NCBI RefSeq assembly: GCF_009695545.1
Contig: NZ_VUNS01000025.1
Location: 1 to 64,000, forward strand
Direction of reading: 5' to 3'
Source: Victivallis lenta
Lineage (GTDB): Bacteria; Verrucomicrobiota; Lentisphaeria; Victivallales; Victivallaceae
DNA length: 64,000 bases
Positions 1 to 8,327 of this stretch are shown in pieces. How positions within the stretch are numbered: position 1 is the stretch's first letter; every line of letters begins with the position of its first letter. A program made the translations under genes and the position numbers. The notes under the pieces are model-generated. The model was not told the origin of the DNA. It saw only the letters and a list, made by a program, of their open reading frames with translations, and searched no databases.

Positions 1-334
1 TTCGCTTTTTAGGACAGCTGATTTACAACAAAGGGGGGCTACTTTTGAGAATTGGTGTGAAATAGATGAAAATGAGGGGGCGTAATCAGAAAATTACGCC
101 ATTTTGAAAATTGTTAGGACAGGTGTGCGCTTTTTTATCAATTTTTTTCCATATCAGCTGTTTTTTATGTCAGAAAATTTTTTTCACCGCTGATTAATAA
201 GTGAAGAACAAAAGAGAATTTAATCGGAAGGAGGTGGTAGAACAATTAAAAGCACGATCGGGCTTCAATCGATCCGCCCAAAGAAGATCGGGAGTAGAAT
301 TGATCTTCAAAAATAAAAATTAAAGGTATTAACT
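1..334. other. AT-rich leader region of the integrated element, no gene
   Basis: No convincing open frame is present. The stretch is AT-rich, like the next 6 kb and unlike the rest of the window. It carries two copies of TTAGGACAG followed by CTG or GTG (near 9 and 114), an 8-bp hairpin (79-100), and just before the first gene an inverted GAAGATC/GATCTTC pair (283-308 region). These could be control sites for the gene at 335, but no consensus promoter is obvious. Confidence 0.4.
79..100. terminator. Small hairpin, possible terminator
   Basis: The arms GGCGTAAT (79-86) and ATTACGCC (93-100) pair perfectly across a 6-nt loop and are followed by ATTTTG. The stem is short and the T-run weak, so it may be a terminator of a gene lying left of the window or just a small operator. 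Confidence 0.35.
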
Positions 335-943
335 ATGAAAACTGTTAAAACAATTCTGGTACGTTCGTGCAAAACACCCGTTTTGCTGGGAATCGGCAAG
401 CAATCTGAAATCATTGAAACGGTGAAGGTGGAGAGAAAATTCGATTTTACTGCGTCTGATCCTGTCTCATGCGTGTTGGCAGGGAGTGATCGCTTCGGCT
501 CCAAATGTACGCTCGTCCTGCTGGAAGAAATTCCAGAGGATGAAAATCTGCGTATGATCGAACTCTCCTGTTGGGCTTCCACTGTTGTCAACACGTTGGT
601 TGATATGAACACAATTGACGACGCTTTGAAACCGGCATTTCTCAAGGAGTGCATTCATGATCTCATTTCTGAAGTGCAGGCATTGCGTGAAGCCGATGAA
701 GAAGCCAGAGAAACCCTGCGCCGATCCACTTCAAAATTGATTGTTCCGCTCAAAGATGCGCGGAACAAGTGCAACGATCCGGAAATTTGCGAGTTGATTG
801 ATCAGAAAATAAAAGAAGTGGAAAATGCAGCAGACAAGGATACTGCCAAGCAGATCGCCGATGCCGCCAAAGCGGATAACAGGATCAAACCGTTGTTGCC
901 CGACATCAGAAGAACAGCTCCGGCAGACAATCCGGCTGCCTAA
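335..943 (+). CDS. Hypothetical element-borne protein, 202 aa
   Basis: I do not recognise this protein. It has no signal peptide or membrane segment. The first 90 residues look like a mixed alpha/beta domain; residues 100-190 are highly charged and helical (many E, K, R, D), consistent with a coiled coil. The tail is rich in Ala and Pro. The start is ATG 335 with an AAAGG-type ribosome site about 9 nt upstream. A strong terminator at 1015-1057 makes it a single-gene unit, separate from the replication genes. Its AT-rich composition matches the mobile element. It could be an accessory or DNA-associated protein of the element, but nothing in the sequence fixes its job. Confidence 0.7.
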   Translation: MKTVKTILVRSCKTPVLLGIGKQSEIIETVKVERKFDFTASDPVSCVLAGSDRFGSKCTLVLLEEIPEDENLRMIELSCWASTVVNTLVDMNTIDDALKPAFLKECIHDLISEVQALREADEEARETLRRSTSKLIVPLKDARNKCNDPEICELIDQKIKEVENAADKDTAKQIADAAKADNRIKPLLPDIRRTAPADNPAA

Positions 944-1014
944 ACTGCAATCCTGCCTCCAAGAAGATCAGATGGTCCGACCAAGCCCGCATTGACAACA
1001 GGAAGTTATCCGAA

Positions 1015-1057
1015 GCATCCCGTTTTTCTCCAACCCGGAGAAGCGGGATGTTTTTTG
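1015..1057 (+). terminator. Rho-independent terminator after the 202-aa gene
   Basis: CATCCCG pairs with CGGGATG, with an inner TTCTCC/GGAGAA pairing, followed immediately by six T (1051-1056). This is a strong intrinsic terminator on the plus strand. Confidence 0.85.
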
Positions 1058-1270
1058 TCCGGAAACAACAGGAAATATTTGGTCCTATTCAGATCAAATA
1101 ACAAAATGATGAAAATTCCAACGCGTTGGGAAATTTCTACTTCACTTGCCGACTGATTGAAACGCCATTATTCCAGATAGCATACTCTTGGCGAAATGCA
1201 AATCATGCTCATCTCTCATTAGCCACAACGGTTCGCCTTTAGTACCGGAACATCCCGTTTTTGCATCCCC
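1058..1270. other. Intergenic stretch with a 12-bp perfect palindrome
   Basis: No gene is seen here. CCAACGCGTTGG at 1118-1129 is a perfect palindrome inside a larger imperfect dyad (GAAAATT on the left, GAAATTTC on the right). It lies about 150 bp upstream of the replication promoter, so it is a candidate operator for an element regulator. Confidence 0.45.
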
Positions 1271-1299
1271 TTGACATTTCACGCATCGCTGCTTATATT
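1271..1299 (+). promoter_or_regulatory. Sigma-70 promoter of the replication genes
   Basis: TTGACA (1271-1276), a 17-bp spacer and TATATT (1294-1299). Transcription should begin near 1306, giving a leader of about 200 nt before the HTH gene at 1503. It is the only good promoter seen upstream of the HTH/helicase pair. Confidence 0.8.
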
Positions 1300-1502
1300 A
1301 AGTTTTATCGAAGAAACAGAAGTATTCTTCCTATCAAAACAAGACATTGTTCTTGCGTGGCACCGTACACAGATATTGGCGTTCACGTTCTTTGCAACAA
1401 CAGCTTTATCCTGATTTAATCCGGATACACGAACCGTTAACAGCATGGTTCCGAGGAATCGTGCGCGGGGATACCGGTTAATATTTTATTTAAGGAGGCA
1501 TT

Positions 1503-1730
1503 ATGCCCCAAAGAAACTCAAGAATGGTTTGCCCCGACTGGGCAAAGAGAGAACTGTATGGAGAACCGTACATTACCCGGCAGGAAGTATGCGACTACCT
1601 CGGCATCAGCATTTCAACATTGATGAAACTGCGGAAAAACGGCCTGCCTACTTATCAAGTCGGCGGTCAAAAGAGATTCCGGCTTTCAGATGTAAATGAA
1701 TTTATCAAACAAAACTATCTCGGAGAGTAA
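1503..1730 (+). CDS. Excisionase/AlpA-like helix-turn-helix protein, 75 aa
   Basis: A small winged-helix DNA-binding protein of the HTH_17 (excisionase/MerR-like) type. The stretch from YITRQEVCDYL through GISISTLMKLRK to QKRFRLSDVNEFI (residues about 23-68) has the usual pattern: helix, turn with GIS, recognition helix, wing, then a closing helix beginning with a D. AAGGAGG sits 5 nt before ATG 1503, which fixes the start over the longer overlapping frame. It is the first gene after the promoter at 1271 and lies 4 nt upstream of the helicase gene. In phages and integrative elements such proteins act as excisionase (Xis) or as activator of excision and replication; the choice here is inference. 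Confidence 0.85.
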   Translation: MPQRNSRMVCPDWAKRELYGEPYITRQEVCDYLGISISTLMKLRKNGLPTYQVGGQKRFRLSDVNEFIKQNYLGE

Positions 1731-1734
1731 GAAA

Positions 1735-4068
1735 ATGGAAAATGTGAAAACAGATAAAAAAGTAACCGGGGCGGTATTCCCCGGCTATATGATCGATGAT
1801 TTTGAGTATGTTTCATCTATCAGTAATATACACCCTAATTCATTAACTTGCAACGAAATCAAAATCAGTACCGTTCAAACCGGAATGGACCATTTCACAC
1901 CGACTGCACCAACTGTCGATGAAACAGAAGAGTGGGCCCGAAGAGACTTACAGAATTCCGGAATCGACTGGAATGAATTTTGTTCCTTTGGCGGCAAATT
2001 GATTACTTCGGAAGCAGAGTTCCATGAGTATCTTGATTATGAACCGAGCTGTTTGGATGGCAAAGCAGTCGGATGGCTGTTGCCTTTCTATAATCCCAAG
2101 AATGGAGAAGAACTCATCGGAGCGGATGGAATGCCGTATTTCCGAATCCGAATGCGATATCCGGCACAAACCTCCGGCGAGAAGCCCGCAAAGTACCTGA
2201 GCCGCAAAAATGCGGGACAGCACGCTTTTATTCTTGCAACAGTTCACAAACAGTTGGCACATGATCCCAAAGCACCGCTGATCCTGACCGAAGGAGAAAA
2301 GAAAGCATGGTGTGCAACTAATCACGGCATGCCGACCATTGGACTTACGGGCAACTTCGGCTGGTCGCTTTCCGGTACGAAAGAACTTCTGCCTGAATTG
2401 GTGGAATATCTTAATAAAGAGCGTCCTGTTTACGTCATCTGGGACAGCGATGCGCGTAACAACCGCATGTTTCAATCGTCAACCCGTCAGCTTGCAACCG
2501 CACTCCAACCGCACGGATGCACGTTAAAAGAGATCATCCTTCCGGCACTGCCGAAGAATAAAAAGACCGGGCTTGATGACTATATCATGCAGTTGAACCC
2601 TGCCAACTTGTTTGAATCCATTGCCTCGCAAAGCAAGATAGCAGAACCGGATAAACGCAGTATCACCAGCAAAGCCAACGGAGCACTTGGCGGTCGTCTG
2701 GTGGTCACCAAAGACATTGCGGACGAGATCGCCAGAGAGTGGCTCGATGATAAGGGTAGAAAACTTCTCGCTTATTACAGGGGGAGCTTCTACGAATACA
2801 AGCGTGGTCTTTACACCCGATGTGCCGATGAGGATATGGATGCAAAGATCATGAGTCTCCTGCGTAAAAAAGCTCCGGAAAATGCAACCCCCAACATGCT
2901 GAAATCGGTCAAACTGAATTTCACCTCGACAGAACTTTTCTACATCAGCAGCAGAGCAGAAATCCCCTGTGATCGTGATACGGGAGCGTCTCTGCCGCAG
3001 ATCATCCATCTGCAAAACGGCTACTGGTTCGCAGATCAGATCATTCAGGAGATCAGAGACGGGAAATCTCCGGCATCTTCGTTTAAAGCCAATACTCCGG
3101 AAATTTTTGACCAGCTTATTCTGCCTGTGGAATACAAAGCCGATGCCGATTGCCCCAAATTCAAAAAATATCTGGAAGAGGCACTGCCTGATCCGGAAAT
3201 CCGCCACATGCTGCAATGTCTGATGGGGCTGTCATTGATTCCCGACACGTCGCGCAATGTGATCTTCTTTCTCTATGGCGAAGGCGGTTGCGGCAAGAGT
3301 GTATTCATTGAAGTATTGCGCAATCTGGTCGGTGTTGAGAACTGCTGTTGTGTACCGCTGGCAAGATTTACTGACCGTTTCCGGTGCATCGATCTTACAA
3401 AGTCACTGTTGAACATCATTGGCGACATGCCGACCGATGACGGTACTACCGCACCGCACAATATTGAAGGCATGATGAAAGATGCCGCTGACGGCGGTTC
3501 GATTCCGGTAGAGGAAAAGTTCAAAACACCGTATACGGCAAAAGTGACAGCAAGAAGCATATTTGCCACCAATTCACTGCCTCATTTTACCGATCGCACA
3601 CAGGCATTACAGGATCGGTTGCGCATCATTCCCTTTATGCAGCGGTTCCGAGGAACAAAAACAGAAAATCCGCATCTGCGTGACGAACTGATCCGGGAAG
3701 AACCCTCCGGCATATTCAATTTTGCTTTACAGGGGCTTGCAGAATTGAGTAATCATAGAACATTTCCCGAACCGGAGGTTTGCAAAAAGATCAAGATGGA
3801 GCATTTCGACAGTTGCATTACGGAACGTGCCTTCATCAAGAGCCATGTGGAGCGTGCAAAGGAGGATTATGTTTTCAAGTGTGACCTCTACCGGGCATTC
3901 AAGGCTGTCTGTCAGGATGAAGGACGGCGACCGGTATCTGCCATGAAATTTGCCGAAGAGCTTGCACGCTGTTTCCCGGAATTACGGGAGGAATACATTT
4001 CTGTGCCGCCACGCAAGGCAATCGGCTGGCGTGGTATCCGTCTGGTTTCAGAGCGAGACGGAGAATAA
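1735..4068 (+). CDS. P4-type primase / SF3 helicase replication protein, 777 aa
   Basis: Initiator-type replication protein of the phage/plasmid P4 class. The N-terminal half carries a Toprim-like DUF3854 module: LTEGEKKAW near residue 184, VIWDSDA near 235 and TGLDDYI near 278, the acidic residues expected to bind metal. The middle has a D5-N-like region; the C-terminal half is a superfamily 3 helicase with Walker A GEGGCGKS (residues 515-522), a GDMPTDD segment, the IFATNSLP sensor and a DRLRIIPF arginine stretch. I chose ATG 1735 over an in-frame ATG 39 nt upstream because GGAGAG lies 7 nt before it and the longer start would overlap the HTH gene. It is translationally close to that gene and is followed by a polymerase, so the pair forms a replication module. 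Confidence 0.92.
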   Translation: MENVKTDKKVTGAVFPGYMIDDFEYVSSISNIHPNSLTCNEIKISTVQTGMDHFTPTAPTVDETEEWARRDLQNSGIDWNEFCSFGGKLITSEAEFHEYLDYEPSCLDGKAVGWLLPFYNPKNGEELIGADGMPYFRIRMRYPAQTSGEKPAKYLSRKNAGQHAFILATVHKQLAHDPKAPLILTEGEKKAWCATNHGMPTIGLTGNFGWSLSGTKELLPELVEYLNKERPVYVIWDSDARNNRMFQSSTRQLATALQPHGCTLKEIILPALPKNKKTGLDDYIMQLNPANLFESIASQSKIAEPDKRSITSKANGALGGRLVVTKDIADEIAREWLDDKGRKLLAYYRGSFYEYKRGLYTRCADEDMDAKIMSLLRKKAPENATPNMLKSVKLNFTSTELFYISSRAEIPCDRDTGASLPQIIHLQNGYWFADQIIQEIRDGKSPASSFKANTPEIFDQLILPVEYKADADCPKFKKYLEEALPDPEIRHMLQCLMGLSLIPDTSRNVIFFLYGEGGCGKSVFIEVLRNLVGVENCCCVPLARFTDRFRCIDLTKSLLNIIGDMPTDDGTTAPHNIEGMMKDAADGGSIPVEEKFKTPYTAKVTARSIFATNSLPHFTDRTQALQDRLRIIPFMQRFRGTKTENPHLRDELIREEPSGIFNFALQGLAELSNHRTFPEPEVCKKIKMEHFDSCITERAFIKSHVERAKEDYVFKCDLYRAFKAVCQDEGRRPVSAMKFAEELARCFPELREEYISVPPRKAIGWRGIRLVSERDGE

Positions 4069-4093
4069 AGAAAAAAATAAAAATTTCAAACTG

Positions 4094-4156
4094 CTATTAA
4101 GTGTAGAATAACCTAATCTGCAAAATACATAATATTAGGTTATTCTATCTTAATAG
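4094..4156. repeat. 63-bp AT-rich interrupted palindrome between helicase and polymerase
   Basis: The outer arms CTATTAA (4094-4100) and TTAATAG (4150-4156) and inner arms TAGAATAACCTAAT (4104-4117) and ATTAGGTTATTCTA (4134-4147) pair perfectly, 21 bp in all, with 3- and 2-nt bulges and a 16-nt loop. The flanks are extremely AT-rich. It may be a replication origin, a regulatory operator, or an attenuator between the two genes. The absence of a T-run directly after it argues against a simple terminator. Confidence 0.8.
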
Positions 4157-4202
4157 GGAATTATAAAATTTAAAATTTTTTATACTAAAGGCTCTATTTA
4201 TT

Positions 4203-6164
4203 ATGCTTCCATTACTGCCCCTTGATTTCGAGACCTATTATTCCGACAGTTACAATCTCAATAACTCCACCTCTTATCAGGAGTACATTCTTTCACCCCA
4301 GTTTAAGATTCATGGACTGGCAGTGTACTATCCTGACGGTAAAAGAGAGTTCCGCCGTGATGCCGATGTGTTGCTTCATGAGTTGCAAAGTGTTTACGGC
4401 AACAATCTGGAAAATGTCTGTATCATCATGCACAATGCCATGTTTGATGCCGCTATCCTTAAATACAAGTTCAACATCATTCCCCCATGTATTTACGATA
4501 CCATGCTGATGGCAAAGTATCTTTACGGTGTCGATGTGAAAGTAAGCTTAAAAGAGCTTGCGGAACGCTGTCATTTGCCCGCAAAGCTCGACCTTGAGTT
4601 CTCCAAAGGTAAACGTGAGCTCACAGCAGCAGAGTTTGCGGAACTCCGTACCTATGCGATCAACGATGTCGTCATCACTCGTGAACTCTATGGCCATATT
4701 GTTCCAAAGATATTACCGGAGGAGTTGGAGATCATCAATCATACCGTACAATGTTTCCTGCGTGATGCAGTAAAGATCAACAAAGAACTGCTCCAACTGG
4801 CCCGCCATGAACTTTGTACCCAACTGATCAATGAATTGGGGGAAATACATCCCGAAGAAGTTTCGAGTGATCGTCAGTTTGCTCAACTGCTTTCCGGTGC
4901 ATTGGCTGAAACCAATCGTGCTCTTGCGATGAAACCGGGTAAAAACGGAATGATCCCGGCTATTTCAAAGAATGACCCTGAAATGCAGAACATGCTCTCC
5001 GATCCCGACCCGCTTGTCCGTGAACTTGTCAAAGCAAGGTTGCTGGTGAAATCAAAAGCACAATTGCAGTCACGTATCAATTACCTCATCGGTACGGCAA
5101 ATCTGACGGGCGGTACATTGCCGGTGTTTCTCAAGTATCATCATGCGCAAACCGGACGTTTTGCAGGAGGCAACGGTCTTAACTTGCAGAATCTTCCTGT
5201 TCCCGGACGCTCGCCGGTTCAAATCCTCAATGATACGGCACGGAAGATCAGGCAAGCCATTCATGCACCGGCAGGATACGTTTTTGTCGCCGTGGATGCG
5301 GCACAGATCGAAGCGCGTGTGCTTGCGTGGCTGACTGGCGAAGAAACACTGAACACCGCCTTTGCCGCAGGGAAAGATATTTATTCCGAATTTGCCACCG
5401 ATGTTTTCCATGAACCTGCCGGACATCCCCGTGACAGCACTCCTGCTGAACAGCGAAAGGGCTTATTGCGCAAGATCGGTAAAACAGCCATCCTCGGTTT
5501 GGGATACAATATGGGAGTGGAGCGTTTCGCGGAACAATTGAAAAGTTTCATCGCCAGCAGCGAATTGTGCCGTTCAGAGCGCGAGCTTGCCGCCCTTGCC
5601 TATAAGATCGTCCACTCTTATCGAGCAAAATACAACAACATCTCCACATTTTGGAATCGGCTGGAAAAAGCATTCAGGGAAAGCATCTGCAAACAACAGC
5701 ATGTTCGGATCGGAATGCTTGAGATCTCTTCCAATAGCGAAGCAACATGGTTGCAACTCGCTTCCAGACGTGAGCTGATCTATCGTGACTGCGAAATACG
5801 TCCCTCTGAATTCCAAGAAATCACCTTTTACAACACTTCCGGAGAATGTGAATCAAGAATCATCGAACAACAATCGATACAATACCGTAACAGCACCTCT
5901 TTGTACGGTGGGAAGCTGACTGAAAATGTCGTTCAGGCTATAGCCCGTGATCTGCTGGTCAGGGTGATTCTGGAATGCGAGAAAGCTGGTATTCCGATTG
6001 TCCTTCACATTCACGACGAGGTGATTGCCTGTGTTCCTGAAGTTCAGGCCGAGCAAGCTATGGAAAAAATGATTCAAATATGGAGAACGGTTCCCCAATG
6101 GGCTGAAGGATTGGTCCTTGACGCCGAAGGAGTCATCGGAACCAATCTTGCCGAGCTGAAGTAA
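4203..6164 (+). CDS. Family A DNA polymerase with 3'-5' exonuclease, phage-type, 653 aa
   Basis: Replicative-style DNA polymerase I homolog without a 5' nuclease domain. The N-terminal DEDD exonuclease keeps its acidic residues: LDFET (residues 7-11), HNAMFDAA near 77-84 and YAINDVV near 151. The polymerase domain has TGRFAGGNGLNLQNLP (317-332), motif A VAVDAAQIEARV with Asp365, motif B RKIGKTAILGLGYNMG near 423, and motif C HIHDEV near 613. All catalytic residues appear present, so it should be active. Length and layout match polymerases of phages and phage-like elements rather than the host repair enzyme (about 900 aa). ATG 4203 has an AAAGG site about 11 nt upstream, and a strong terminator follows the stop. 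Confidence 0.93.
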   Translation: MLPLLPLDFETYYSDSYNLNNSTSYQEYILSPQFKIHGLAVYYPDGKREFRRDADVLLHELQSVYGNNLENVCIIMHNAMFDAAILKYKFNIIPPCIYDTMLMAKYLYGVDVKVSLKELAERCHLPAKLDLEFSKGKRELTAAEFAELRTYAINDVVITRELYGHIVPKILPEELEIINHTVQCFLRDAVKINKELLQLARHELCTQLINELGEIHPEEVSSDRQFAQLLSGALAETNRALAMKPGKNGMIPAISKNDPEMQNMLSDPDPLVRELVKARLLVKSKAQLQSRINYLIGTANLTGGTLPVFLKYHHAQTGRFAGGNGLNLQNLPVPGRSPVQILNDTARKIRQAIHAPAGYVFVAVDAAQIEARVLAWLTGEETLNTAFAAGKDIYSEFATDVFHEPAGHPRDSTPAEQRKGLLRKIGKTAILGLGYNMGVERFAEQLKSFIASSELCRSERELAALAYKIVHSYRAKYNNISTFWNRLEKAFRESICKQQHVRIGMLEISSNSEATWLQLASRRELIYRDCEIRPSEFQEITFYNTSGECESRIIEQQSIQYRNSTSLYGGKLTENVVQAIARDLLVRVILECEKAGIPIVLHIHDEVIACVPEVQAEQAMEKMIQIWRTVPQWAEGLVLDAEGVIGTNLAELK

Positions 6165-6170
6165 TCTCCG

Positions 6171-6223
6171 TTCCCCCATGTATTCATGATTTCAGCAGAA
6201 TGTGAAACATGGGGGAATTTTTT
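6171..6223 (+). terminator. Strong terminator after the DNA polymerase gene
   Basis: TTCCCCCATGT (6171-6181) pairs perfectly with ACATGGGGGAA (6207-6217), followed by six T. It begins 7 nt after the stop codon and closes the replication operon. Confidence 0.9.
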
Positions 6224-6311
6224 CTGACCTTTAAGCGGGGAATCCAATACCGAAGATTGCACAGATACCAATTCCTGTAATCTGTAAAGTTTTTCAATTC
6301 GTCAGCATTAC

Positions 6312-6342
6312 AAGAGCCCCTCAAGTGATTTGAAAGGCTCTT
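6312..6342. terminator. Hairpin, possible second terminator
   Basis: AAGAGCC (6312-6318) pairs with GGCTCTT (6336-6342), with an inner TCAA/TTGA pairing. A weak T-rich stretch follows. It could be a backup terminator or a regulatory hairpin. Confidence 0.5.
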
Positions 6343-6764
6343 TACCCACAATTATTCTTTTTGAACACTCTGCATGGCACGGAACTCTTCCTGAATTACT
6401 TCACTCTACTGCAAAGTGTTCCATCCTATGCAATAACAGGCCAATCTGTTTCTTCATGTTGACATCAAATACCCATTCACTTCTTAATCGACAGAGTGGA
6501 CATATTCGATTAACTGAAAATGATACGATCATTGCCAAAATCAAAACTTGAATATACAGAGAAACGATAATATACCAAGTTGAAATAACATGAACAATTC
6601 AGCTGGTGTATAAAAGTCTATTTTTCCGTAATTGTCATTGGGTACACATCATTTTTCCTTTTATTGAATGAATGGAGACGTTCGATTAGCTAAAGAAAAG
6701 AGGGAAAAAGTTGAATGCTCAGGGTTGAATTGGACTTAAGCAGGGATAGATTATAACGAGTTTG
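6343..6764. other. Gene-free right arm of the element
   Basis: AT-rich stretch of about 420 bp. Only short open frames occur, without ribosome sites or recognisable products. I see no gene, tRNA or transposon end. It looks like the non-coding right arm of the integrated element. Confidence 0.5.
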
Positions 6765-6791
6765 TGGTACCACGTGGTACACATTTGGTAC
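6765..6791. repeat. Three helically phased TGGTAC repeats
   Basis: TGGTAC occurs at 6765-6770, 6775-6780 and 6786-6791, that is every 10-11 bp, on one face of the helix. The first two also form the palindrome GTGGTACCAC. Such phased direct repeats near an attachment site are typical of excisionase or integrase arm-binding sites; this role is inferred. Confidence 0.55.
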
Positions 6792-6852
6792 ACAAACGGC
6801 AGGGTGAACGAGATTTTTGACGTTGATTTGAGCTCTCAAAAGGCCGAATGGT

Positions 6853-6877
6853 GTACCCGGTCCTCTCCCGGGTACCA
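6853..6877. other. Hairpin resembling a tRNA 3' end: probable attachment site
   Basis: GTACCCGG (6853-6860) pairs with CCGGGTAC (6868-6875). The segment GTCCTCTCCCGGGTACCA (6860-6877) reads like the 3' end of a tRNA (end of the T arm, acceptor strand, then ACCA), but no complete tRNA precedes it. GC content rises sharply to the right. This is what the right attachment site of an element integrated into the 3' end of a tRNA gene would look like, the intact tRNA being expected left of the window. It could instead be a chance terminator-like hairpin, since CATTTTT follows. Confidence 0.4.
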
Positions 6878-7084
6878 TTTTTATGCCCGAAAACGCCCTT
6901 TGAGGTGCCACTGAGTACCGTTCGAAAATTTTTCATTCCCCGTTTGGATTTCTTTCGGTTTCAGGCTGTATCGGAATTTACCGGCACATTTCAAGGGGAG
7001 GCTGAAATGTGCAAGGCACTTCGATCGAGATTGCCCGGAGACTGGGTCCTGCGGGTCGTGATTGGCGCTTGACGGATTCTGGCA

Positions 7085-7121
7085 AATCGGCTTTTCCTGA
7101 TTATCCGGCCGATTGTTTTTT
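7085..7121 (+). terminator. Terminator upstream of the sugar regulator
   Basis: AATCGGC (7085-7091) pairs with GCCGATT (7108-7114), followed by GTTTTTT. No gene is seen just upstream in the host-like DNA (6880-7080), so it may once have ended the locus interrupted by the element. Confidence 0.6.
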
Positions 7122-7142
7122 GAGAAAAATTCAGCTTCCCTC

Positions 7143-7171
7143 TTGACATTTTCTTTTCGGTTTGGTATAAT
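7143..7171 (+). promoter_or_regulatory. Consensus sigma-70 promoter of the GntR/LacI hybrid operon
   Basis: TTGACA (7143-7148), a 17-bp spacer and TATAAT (7166-7171): a perfect consensus. Transcription should start near 7178, inside the first operator. Confidence 0.92.
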
Positions 7172-7176
7172 ATATT

Positions 7177-7187
7177 TAGTCTGACTA
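7177..7187. promoter_or_regulatory. Operator O1 (TAGTCtGACTA)
   Basis: Perfect 11-bp dyad around a single central base, covering the predicted transcription start. The 17-bp context (7174-7190) recurs at 7234-7250 with only the central base changed. The GT-n3-AC core suits a GntR-type winged helix. Binding here would block RNA polymerase. Confidence 0.8.
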
Positions 7188-7236
7188 GATTTCATTTCCC
7201 GTTCGATTATGCGGCGGGAATTGCGCAAACTACATT

Positions 7237-7247
7237 TAGTCCGACTA
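7237..7247. promoter_or_regulatory. Operator O2 (TAGTCcGACTA)
   Basis: Second copy of the 17-bp operator context (7234-7250), identical to O1 except the centre. The centres are 60 bp apart, close to six helical turns, so one regulator tetramer could bridge both by looping. It lies directly before the ribosome site of the regulator gene. Confidence 0.8.
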
Positions 7248-7262
7248 GATAAAGGTGGAATA

Positions 7263-8327
7263 ATGCCGAAATTATTGACAGAGACCAAACATTTTCAGGC
7301 AGCTTCGCAGATCCGCGAGCTGGTGAACACGCTGTCGCCGGGGGAAGTCCTGCCGGTAGCGAGCGAATTGATGGAGACGCTGAATATTTCGCACGGGACC
7401 GCGATGCGGGCGTTGAAGGTCCTGGCGGACGAGGGAGTTATCGTTCGCCCGATGGGCAAATTGCGCTACCGGATCGCGGAACGCTTCGAACGGGTTTCGG
7501 CCCGGATCAGCATGGTTCGGCCGGATTTTCCATCGAGTGACCTCGACGGAATGGTCCAGAGCGTCTATGAGGCCGGAAAGAAGCGAAACTGGAAATTCAA
7601 TCAGTACTGCTTCCGCAAAAGCGATGAGGTCGATTTCACTCGGATCATGGGAGAAGCCGACGCGATGGTGCTGATTCCGACCGCCGAATTCATCAGCGAG
7701 GAGCTGATCAGGGCGCTTCTGAAACCGGAACGCCCGGTGGCGGTGCTGCTGCAGCATTTGCGTCATCCCGGAATCAACAATGTCTGCATCAACGATTTCC
7801 GGGTCGGGGAGCTGGCTGCCGAAACCCTGTTCGAACGCGGACACCGCCGGATTCTCTTCGTCAAGGACCAGCCGGACGAAACCACCATGGCGGAACGTTA
7901 CCGCGGATTCTCTGCCGCGGCGGAGCGGTTCGGGATTCCATGCGGCGGAGAGTGGTTTCTCGATACGCATATCCATGCGTTTGAGGACGGAAGGGAAAAC
8001 TGCTACCGGGCGTTGTCGGAACTGATCGGCCGGAAGAAACCGGAATTCACCGCCGTTTTCTGCGCTTCGATGATGGGCGGTGTTGCGGCGCTCCGGGCGG
8101 TGCGGGAGCAGGGGCTGGCGGTTCCGGACGATATCGCGGTGCTGGCCTTCGGCGGCGAGTCGGATCTTGCACCCTATCTGTATCCGCCGCTTTCCTGCAT
8201 CGAAATCCATTACGAACTGTTCGGGGAATATGCGGCGCGGCTGCTCGAAGCTGCGCTTTCGCCGGAACCGTCCGAACCGCGCCGGTTTACGATTGAGCCG
8301 CGGCTGGTTTTGCGGGAATCCATCTGA
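7263..8327 (+). CDS. Transcriptional regulator: GntR HTH fused to LacI-type sugar-binding domain, 354 aa
   Basis: Residues 1-75 form a GntR winged helix (LMETLNISHGTAMRALKVL, then the LADEGVIVRPMG wing). Residues about 80-350 are a periplasmic-binding-protein-like effector domain of the LacI/GalR family, with GHRRILFVKDQ, a RYRGF stretch and DDIAVLAFGGESDL. Such hybrids sense a sugar. I chose ATG 7263, preceded by AAAGGTGG, over the longer frame from 7209, which would overlap operator O2. The gene has its own promoter with two identical operators and is followed after 35 bp by a secreted sugar hydrolase-like gene, so it probably represses itself and that gene until a sugar binds. The ligand cannot be read from the sequence. 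Confidence 0.9.
   Translation: MPKLLTETKHFQAASQIRELVNTLSPGEVLPVASELMETLNISHGTAMRALKVLADEGVIVRPMGKLRYRIAERFERVSARISMVRPDFPSSDLDGMVQSVYEAGKKRNWKFNQYCFRKSDEVDFTRIMGEADAMVLIPTAEFISEELIRALLKPERPVAVLLQHLRHPGINNVCINDFRVGELAAETLFERGHRRILFVKDQPDETTMAERYRGFSAAAERFGIPCGGEWFLDTHIHAFEDGRENCYRALSELIGRKKPEFTAVFCASMMGGVAALRAVREQGLAVPDDIAVLAFGGESDLAPYLYPPLSCIEIHYELFGEYAARLLEAALSPEPSEPRRFTIEPRLVLRESI

Follow-up and report, generated by a model that had tools for sequence, protein, structure and literature searches.

The window considered here spans positions 1–64,000 of C25, a contig of Victivallis lenta, whose 5.5-Mb genome is in 78 contigs. At its left end lies an AT-rich block (45.4% GC over positions 128–6860, compared with 61.9% over 6900–64000), and the GC content steps from 45% to 62% at 6877/6878. 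A first-pass annotation had rightly singled out this block and had proposed that positions 1–6877 are the right end of an integrative element with its own family A polymerase. Our analysis supports that proposal through the right attachment site (attR), the empty sites of related genomes and the recovery of the other half of the element, here called element B, on contig C42.

The block carries a rightward replication operon on the forward strand. The first gene (335–943) encodes a 202-aa protein without family assignment, for which no match was obtained in Pfam, PHROG or NCBIfam. A near-identical copy of this gene is found in another element (C40:28046–28678, L025), where it is followed by an HTH gene and a different primase and where an insertion sequence (IS) stands immediately before the start codon. 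The second protein of the operon is an excisionase/MerR-like HTH_17 protein of 75 aa (1503–1730; Pfam E 1.7e-11, with excisionase and HTH matches in PHROG, including a weak match to a terminase-small-subunit family via the HTH domain). Its gene overlaps the start, at 1696, of a gene (1696–4068) for a protein that combines a Toprim-like primase (Pfam DUF3854), an SF3 helicase (DUF5906) and a C-terminal winged helix. This primase-helicase scores 147.1 bits against TIGR01613, ‘phage/plasmid primase, P4 family’ (curated cut-off 108.7), as expected of the P4-family primase-helicase of P4/PICI satellites, and matches the DNA primase 7OLA in the PDB (E 1.5e-16).

The operon ends with a complete family A DNA polymerase of 653 aa with a 3′–5′ exonuclease domain (4203–6164; Pfam DNA_pol_A and DNA_pol_A_exo1), which matches PHROG_17 (E 6.8e-87) and Klenow (E 1e-19). 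Read by eye, the exonuclease motifs DFET, NxxFD and Y-ND and the polymerase motifs VAVDAAQIEAR, RKIGKTAILGLGY and HDE are all present. The Xis-like HTH protein, the P4-type primase/SF3 helicase and the complete exonuclease-polymerase named in the first-pass annotation are thus all confirmed within 1503–6164. Comparison with a homologue of 82% identity gave a dN/dS of approximately 0.34, and thus the polymerase is under purifying selection. Against the nearest annotated relative of the window (L012, a Victivallis metagenome-assembled genome that corresponds to G074, in the same genus), dN is 0.05 over the first two thirds of the polymerase and 0.26 over the C-terminal third (5523–6164), which has diverged as if exchanged by recombination.

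The border of the element falls exactly on a tRNA end, as had been suggested for a point at about 6.88 kb. The attR (6861–6883, TCCTCTCCCGGGTACCATTTTTA) consists of the 3′ end of tRNA-Arg(CCT), with its last base at 6877, and a few bases of attB flank. Beyond it lies the chromosomal flank (6878–8327), the first gene of which, on the forward strand, encodes a GntR/LacI-type regulator (7209–8327). No intact tRNA gene is present within the 64-kb window. However, a search of the same genome with window positions 6550–7250 recovered the core sequence elsewhere, one copy forming the terminal part of an intact tRNA-Arg(CCT) gene on another contig (C50:4322–4397). Furthermore, genomes lacking the element at this position could be compared: in the congeners G074 and G073, an intact tRNA-Arg(CCT) gene passes directly into the homologue of window positions 6878–6950. 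As the tRNA runs into the window flank at these empty sites, 6861–6883 is a true attR. The same comparison ruled out that the stem-loop at 6852–6879 is a terminator alone. The empty-site homology covers 6878–6950, and the congener neighbourhoods are too fragmentary for longer synteny around the tRNA gene. The tRNA-Arg(CCT) gene on C50 is identical to that of G075 and only approximately 87% identical to those of other congeners; from its sequence it looks replaced, perhaps by an incoming element.

At the other end of the block, the contig opens in a multicopy IS4-type IS, whose end takes up positions 1–127 (terminal GTTAGGACAGGTGTG) and which is the cause of the contig break. Identical stretches of 124–127 bp are found at other contig ends, and fragments of IS4-like transposases (named by eye) adjoin such ends. 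The IS end is followed by a 9-bp target site duplication (TSD; 128–136, CGCTTTTTT), and contigs were joined by targeted searches. Comparison of 12 right with 12 left IS ends gave eight exact one-to-one TSD pairs and no pair at one mismatch, and the TSD of the window matched that of C42 alone among the IS ends compared. Given this unique pairing, C42 in reverse continues element B, for 21,143 bp as far as the tRNA-end core TCTCCCGGGTACCA, which forms a direct repeat at both ends of the element. The TSD, the arm repeats described below and the GC content (45.1% in the C42 half and 45.4% in the window half, against 62% in the flank) all agree on this join. Element B therefore measures approximately 27.9 kb plus one IS, from a 590-aa integrase beside the core to the attR of the window. 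The same IS4-type group, with its 9-bp TSDs, explains at least eight contig breaks in this assembly, and the paired ends can be joined by their TSDs.

Read via C42, the sequence to the left of the window does not consist of chromosomal genes of matching GC that lack an integrase or a tRNA boundary. The 590-aa protein is a tyrosine integrase (Phage_integrase) that begins approximately 130 bp from the core. GGTACAC repeats adjoin the C42 core and the integrase, and the same repeats lie 70–100 bp inside the attR of the window, where three TGGTAC direct repeats (6765–6794) are read as integrase arm-type sites. Element B thus shows the features of a tyrosine-recombinase integrative element at a tRNA gene: an integrase next to one att site, direct repeats of the tRNA 3′ end, and relatives in which the site is empty. 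Integration by a tyrosine recombinase is well supported by these att sites, the integrase and the empty sites.

A second element (element A) has its right end on the far side of the C42 core, with TTTTGTGCCG arms that match the sequence adjoining a 432-aa integrase next to the tRNA gene on C50. This C50 integrase was considered as the partner of the window attR and rejected, because its TTTTGTGCCG arms correspond to the opposite side of the core on C42 and the GGTACAC arms of the window match the 590-aa integrase instead. Elements A and B are probably arranged in tandem at the same tRNA-Arg(CCT) gene, an order that rests on the att sequences; no contigs were recovered between C50 and C42, and the tandem map has a gap there. 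The recovered pieces of element A are C42 in reverse up to base 6272 (L022) and C50:4322–5806 (L023), and relatives of its left end come after the same tRNA gene in G075 and G072.

From the integrase, the C42 half of element B encodes, in order, a DUF932 protein, a PD-(D/E)XK exonuclease, a 129-aa protein, a β-clamp homologue and then cargo, which comprises a DUF3990/DUF3791 pair, Sel1 and ankyrin proteins, a DUF697 protein, a dynamin-like GTPase, a Ser/Thr kinase and a sigma factor. After the IS, the 202-aa protein, HTH protein, primase-helicase and polymerase complete the order. The clamp homologue matches PHROG_947 (E 1.5e-22), with a match to TIGR00663 below the cut-off of that family. Its AlphaFold model, of moderate confidence (pLDDT 69, pTM 0.51), matches solved DnaN clamps (E approximately 1e-14) and has one additional helix at the C terminus; global TM-scores are low, which suggests that domains of the model are misplaced.

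The first-pass annotation had noted that no capsid, terminase or conjugation gene was in view, and none was recognized in the recovered element either. Apart from the weak match of the HTH protein, no terminase, portal, capsid or tail gene, as would mark a prophage, was matched by Pfam or PHROG among the recovered open reading frames (ORFs). Likewise, Pfam and PHROG recognized no relaxase or type IV secretion system domain, as would mark an integrative conjugative or mobilizable element, although a transfer function might reside in small ORFs without assignment. Neither a clamp loader nor an SSB was recognized in element B, and so the element may still rely on host factors.

Elements of this kind are not confined to one genome. 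Among 388 genomes of the phylum, nine match the polymerase at E 1e-30 or better, and a close clade (44–82% identity) has four members including element B. In L012/G074 the polymerase gene is at a different chromosomal site and is followed by triple repeats and a border that resembles a tRNA 3′ end. L066 has tRNA-Asn, integrase, HTH, Toprim, SF3 helicase and polymerase on one contig; a direct repeat of the tRNA-Asn was not found there, and the right end was not located. G216, from another family, contains a complete element of approximately 23.8 kb on a single 292-kb contig. Its order is tRNA-Arg(CCT), triple TCGTGGAAA repeats, PolA, SF3 helicase, primase and HTH, then a divergent block of clamp, 129-aa homologue, exonuclease, DUF932 protein and dynamin-like GTPase, followed by cargo and an integrase, with the arm repeats recurring at the far end beside a second copy of the tRNA end. 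This intact element gives independent support for the join of C42 to the window. G177 has the same layout in part. In G391, a 12-kb contig (C55) groups PolA, primase and ParB-like genes (named by eye); that this contig is a circular plasmid was considered, but its ends do not overlap and circularity is not supported.

Several known systems resemble element B. Cryptic integrated mobile elements (class iii of PMC5862659; CIE of PMC6563490) lack phage and conjugation genes, and element B has the attributes of this class: an integrase, att repeats (often at tRNA genes), its own primase-helicase and no recognized phage or conjugation genes. However, it adds a family A polymerase, a β-clamp homologue and an exonuclease, and so encodes the greater part of a replication fork. 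Pipolins (PMC7385651) are likewise integrated at tRNA genes and have a recombinase, their own replicative DNA polymerase and variable cargo, but theirs is a primer-independent family B polymerase, whereas element B has a family A polymerase with a separate primase-helicase and clamp. Pfam and PHROG revealed no PolB or piPolB among the scanned element B genes. By analogy, element B may work like a pipolin, yet it is not one, as its polymerase belongs to family A. Casposons (PMC6563490), which are self-synthesizing elements, also carry their own polymerase in an integrated element, and tandem insertions of them are known, but they use a Cas1 integrase and PolB, and Pfam detected no domain of either among the genes recovered from element B. 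Finally, phages with family A polymerase and primase modules (for example KPP25 and the phage-like, integrase-bearing Pyramidobacter record NZ_CP133039) have a PHROG_17-type polymerase beside primase and exonuclease genes, but their genomes also include terminase, holin or other phage genes, whereas element B has no recognized virion gene.

We consider it probable that element B is a cryptic integrated element of 27.9 kb (plus one IS) at tRNA-Arg(CCT), with its own PolA–clamp–primase replication and helper-dependent transfer. From gene content we infer its excision, replication and transfer, and the description ‘self-replicating’ is meant in that sense. The integrase would excise the element, with the HTH protein acting as directionality factor; the SF3 primase-helicase would then open an element-borne origin and prime, and the PolA, held by the clamp of the element, would copy the DNA largely independently of host Pol III. 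Reintegration might follow, or exit from the cell via a helper phage or conjugative element. The choice offered by the first-pass annotation, between a plasmid-like element, a phage and a phage-plasmid, narrows accordingly to a plasmid-like, cryptic integrated element; a phage or phage-plasmid fits less well with an integrase and clamp but no recognized virion or conjugation genes.

Other origins and transfer routes have to be weighed against this. If element B were a self-replicating phage satellite packaged by a helper prophage, like PICI or P4, this would concern the transfer route only and would be compatible with a cryptic integrated element. Like those satellites, element B has a P4-family primase-SF3 helicase (similar to the solved primase 7OLA), an integrase, a tRNA-type att site and no capsid genes, and prophage-like terminase genes occur on C12 of the same genome. 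Nevertheless, no satellite-type packaging-interference genes, whether for capsid redirection, terminase small subunit or helper derepression, were recognized in element B. Phage satellites normally use the polymerase of their helper or host, and they are not usually polymerase carriers. We therefore regard packaging as a satellite as rather unlikely. The C12 terminase genes (142–148 kb, L131) adjoin a tRNA-Gly pair and possibly belong to a prophage able to serve as helper.

Transfer could instead depend on helper conjugation, with element B a mobilizable element or integrated plasmid using an unrecognized relaxase or oriT. The several ORFs without assignment leave room for this, and the grouping of PolA, primase and ParB-like genes in G391 is in keeping with it; against it, neither Pfam nor PHROG finds a relaxase, and the PD-(D/E)XK and DUF932 proteins match phage families, so that we think it improbable. 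A prophage remnant, in which the structural genes were lost and an integrase and replication module were left, would account for the PHROG_17-type polymerase, which is approximately 30% identical over its full length to those of tailed phages, and for the exonuclease and clamp, which are also of phage type. However, the same virion-less architecture recurs in another family with its reading frames intact, the polymerase is under purifying selection, and the att sites and integrase of element B are intact; a remnant is therefore likewise improbable.

A wider proposal, which we put forward tentatively, is that these elements form a distinct Victivallales/Lentisphaerota lineage with a PHROG_17-type PolA, a β-clamp, a P4-type primase-helicase and an exonuclease but without genes for transfer. 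Such elements would be the counterpart of pipolins with a family A polymerase and a clamp, and once excised would be able to replicate independently of the host replicase. Searches of the open-licence literature for a family A polymerase, with or without a clamp, in a non-viral integrative element gave no published description; the self-replicating integrated elements that we found described have family B polymerases (pipolins, PMC7385651; casposons, PMC6563490). If the proposal is correct, a phage-type replisome can sustain a non-viral integrative lifestyle, and element B would be a case in which the movement of cryptic elements can be tested.

The clamp gene is present in 36 of the 78 genomes of the family, and related elements therefore look like a large share of the mobilome in this understudied phylum. 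The clamp-cassette elements are an abundant family with varying replication initiators. As the cassette also occurs in elements where PolA was not seen, PolA and clamp need not act together. In the genome studied here there are some ten clamp copies, on C42, C11, C37, C9, C23, C26, C55, C4, C50 and C12; many lie in a cassette of clamp, 129-aa protein, PD-(D/E)XK exonuclease and DUF932 protein, and several adjoin a tRNA gene and an integrase.
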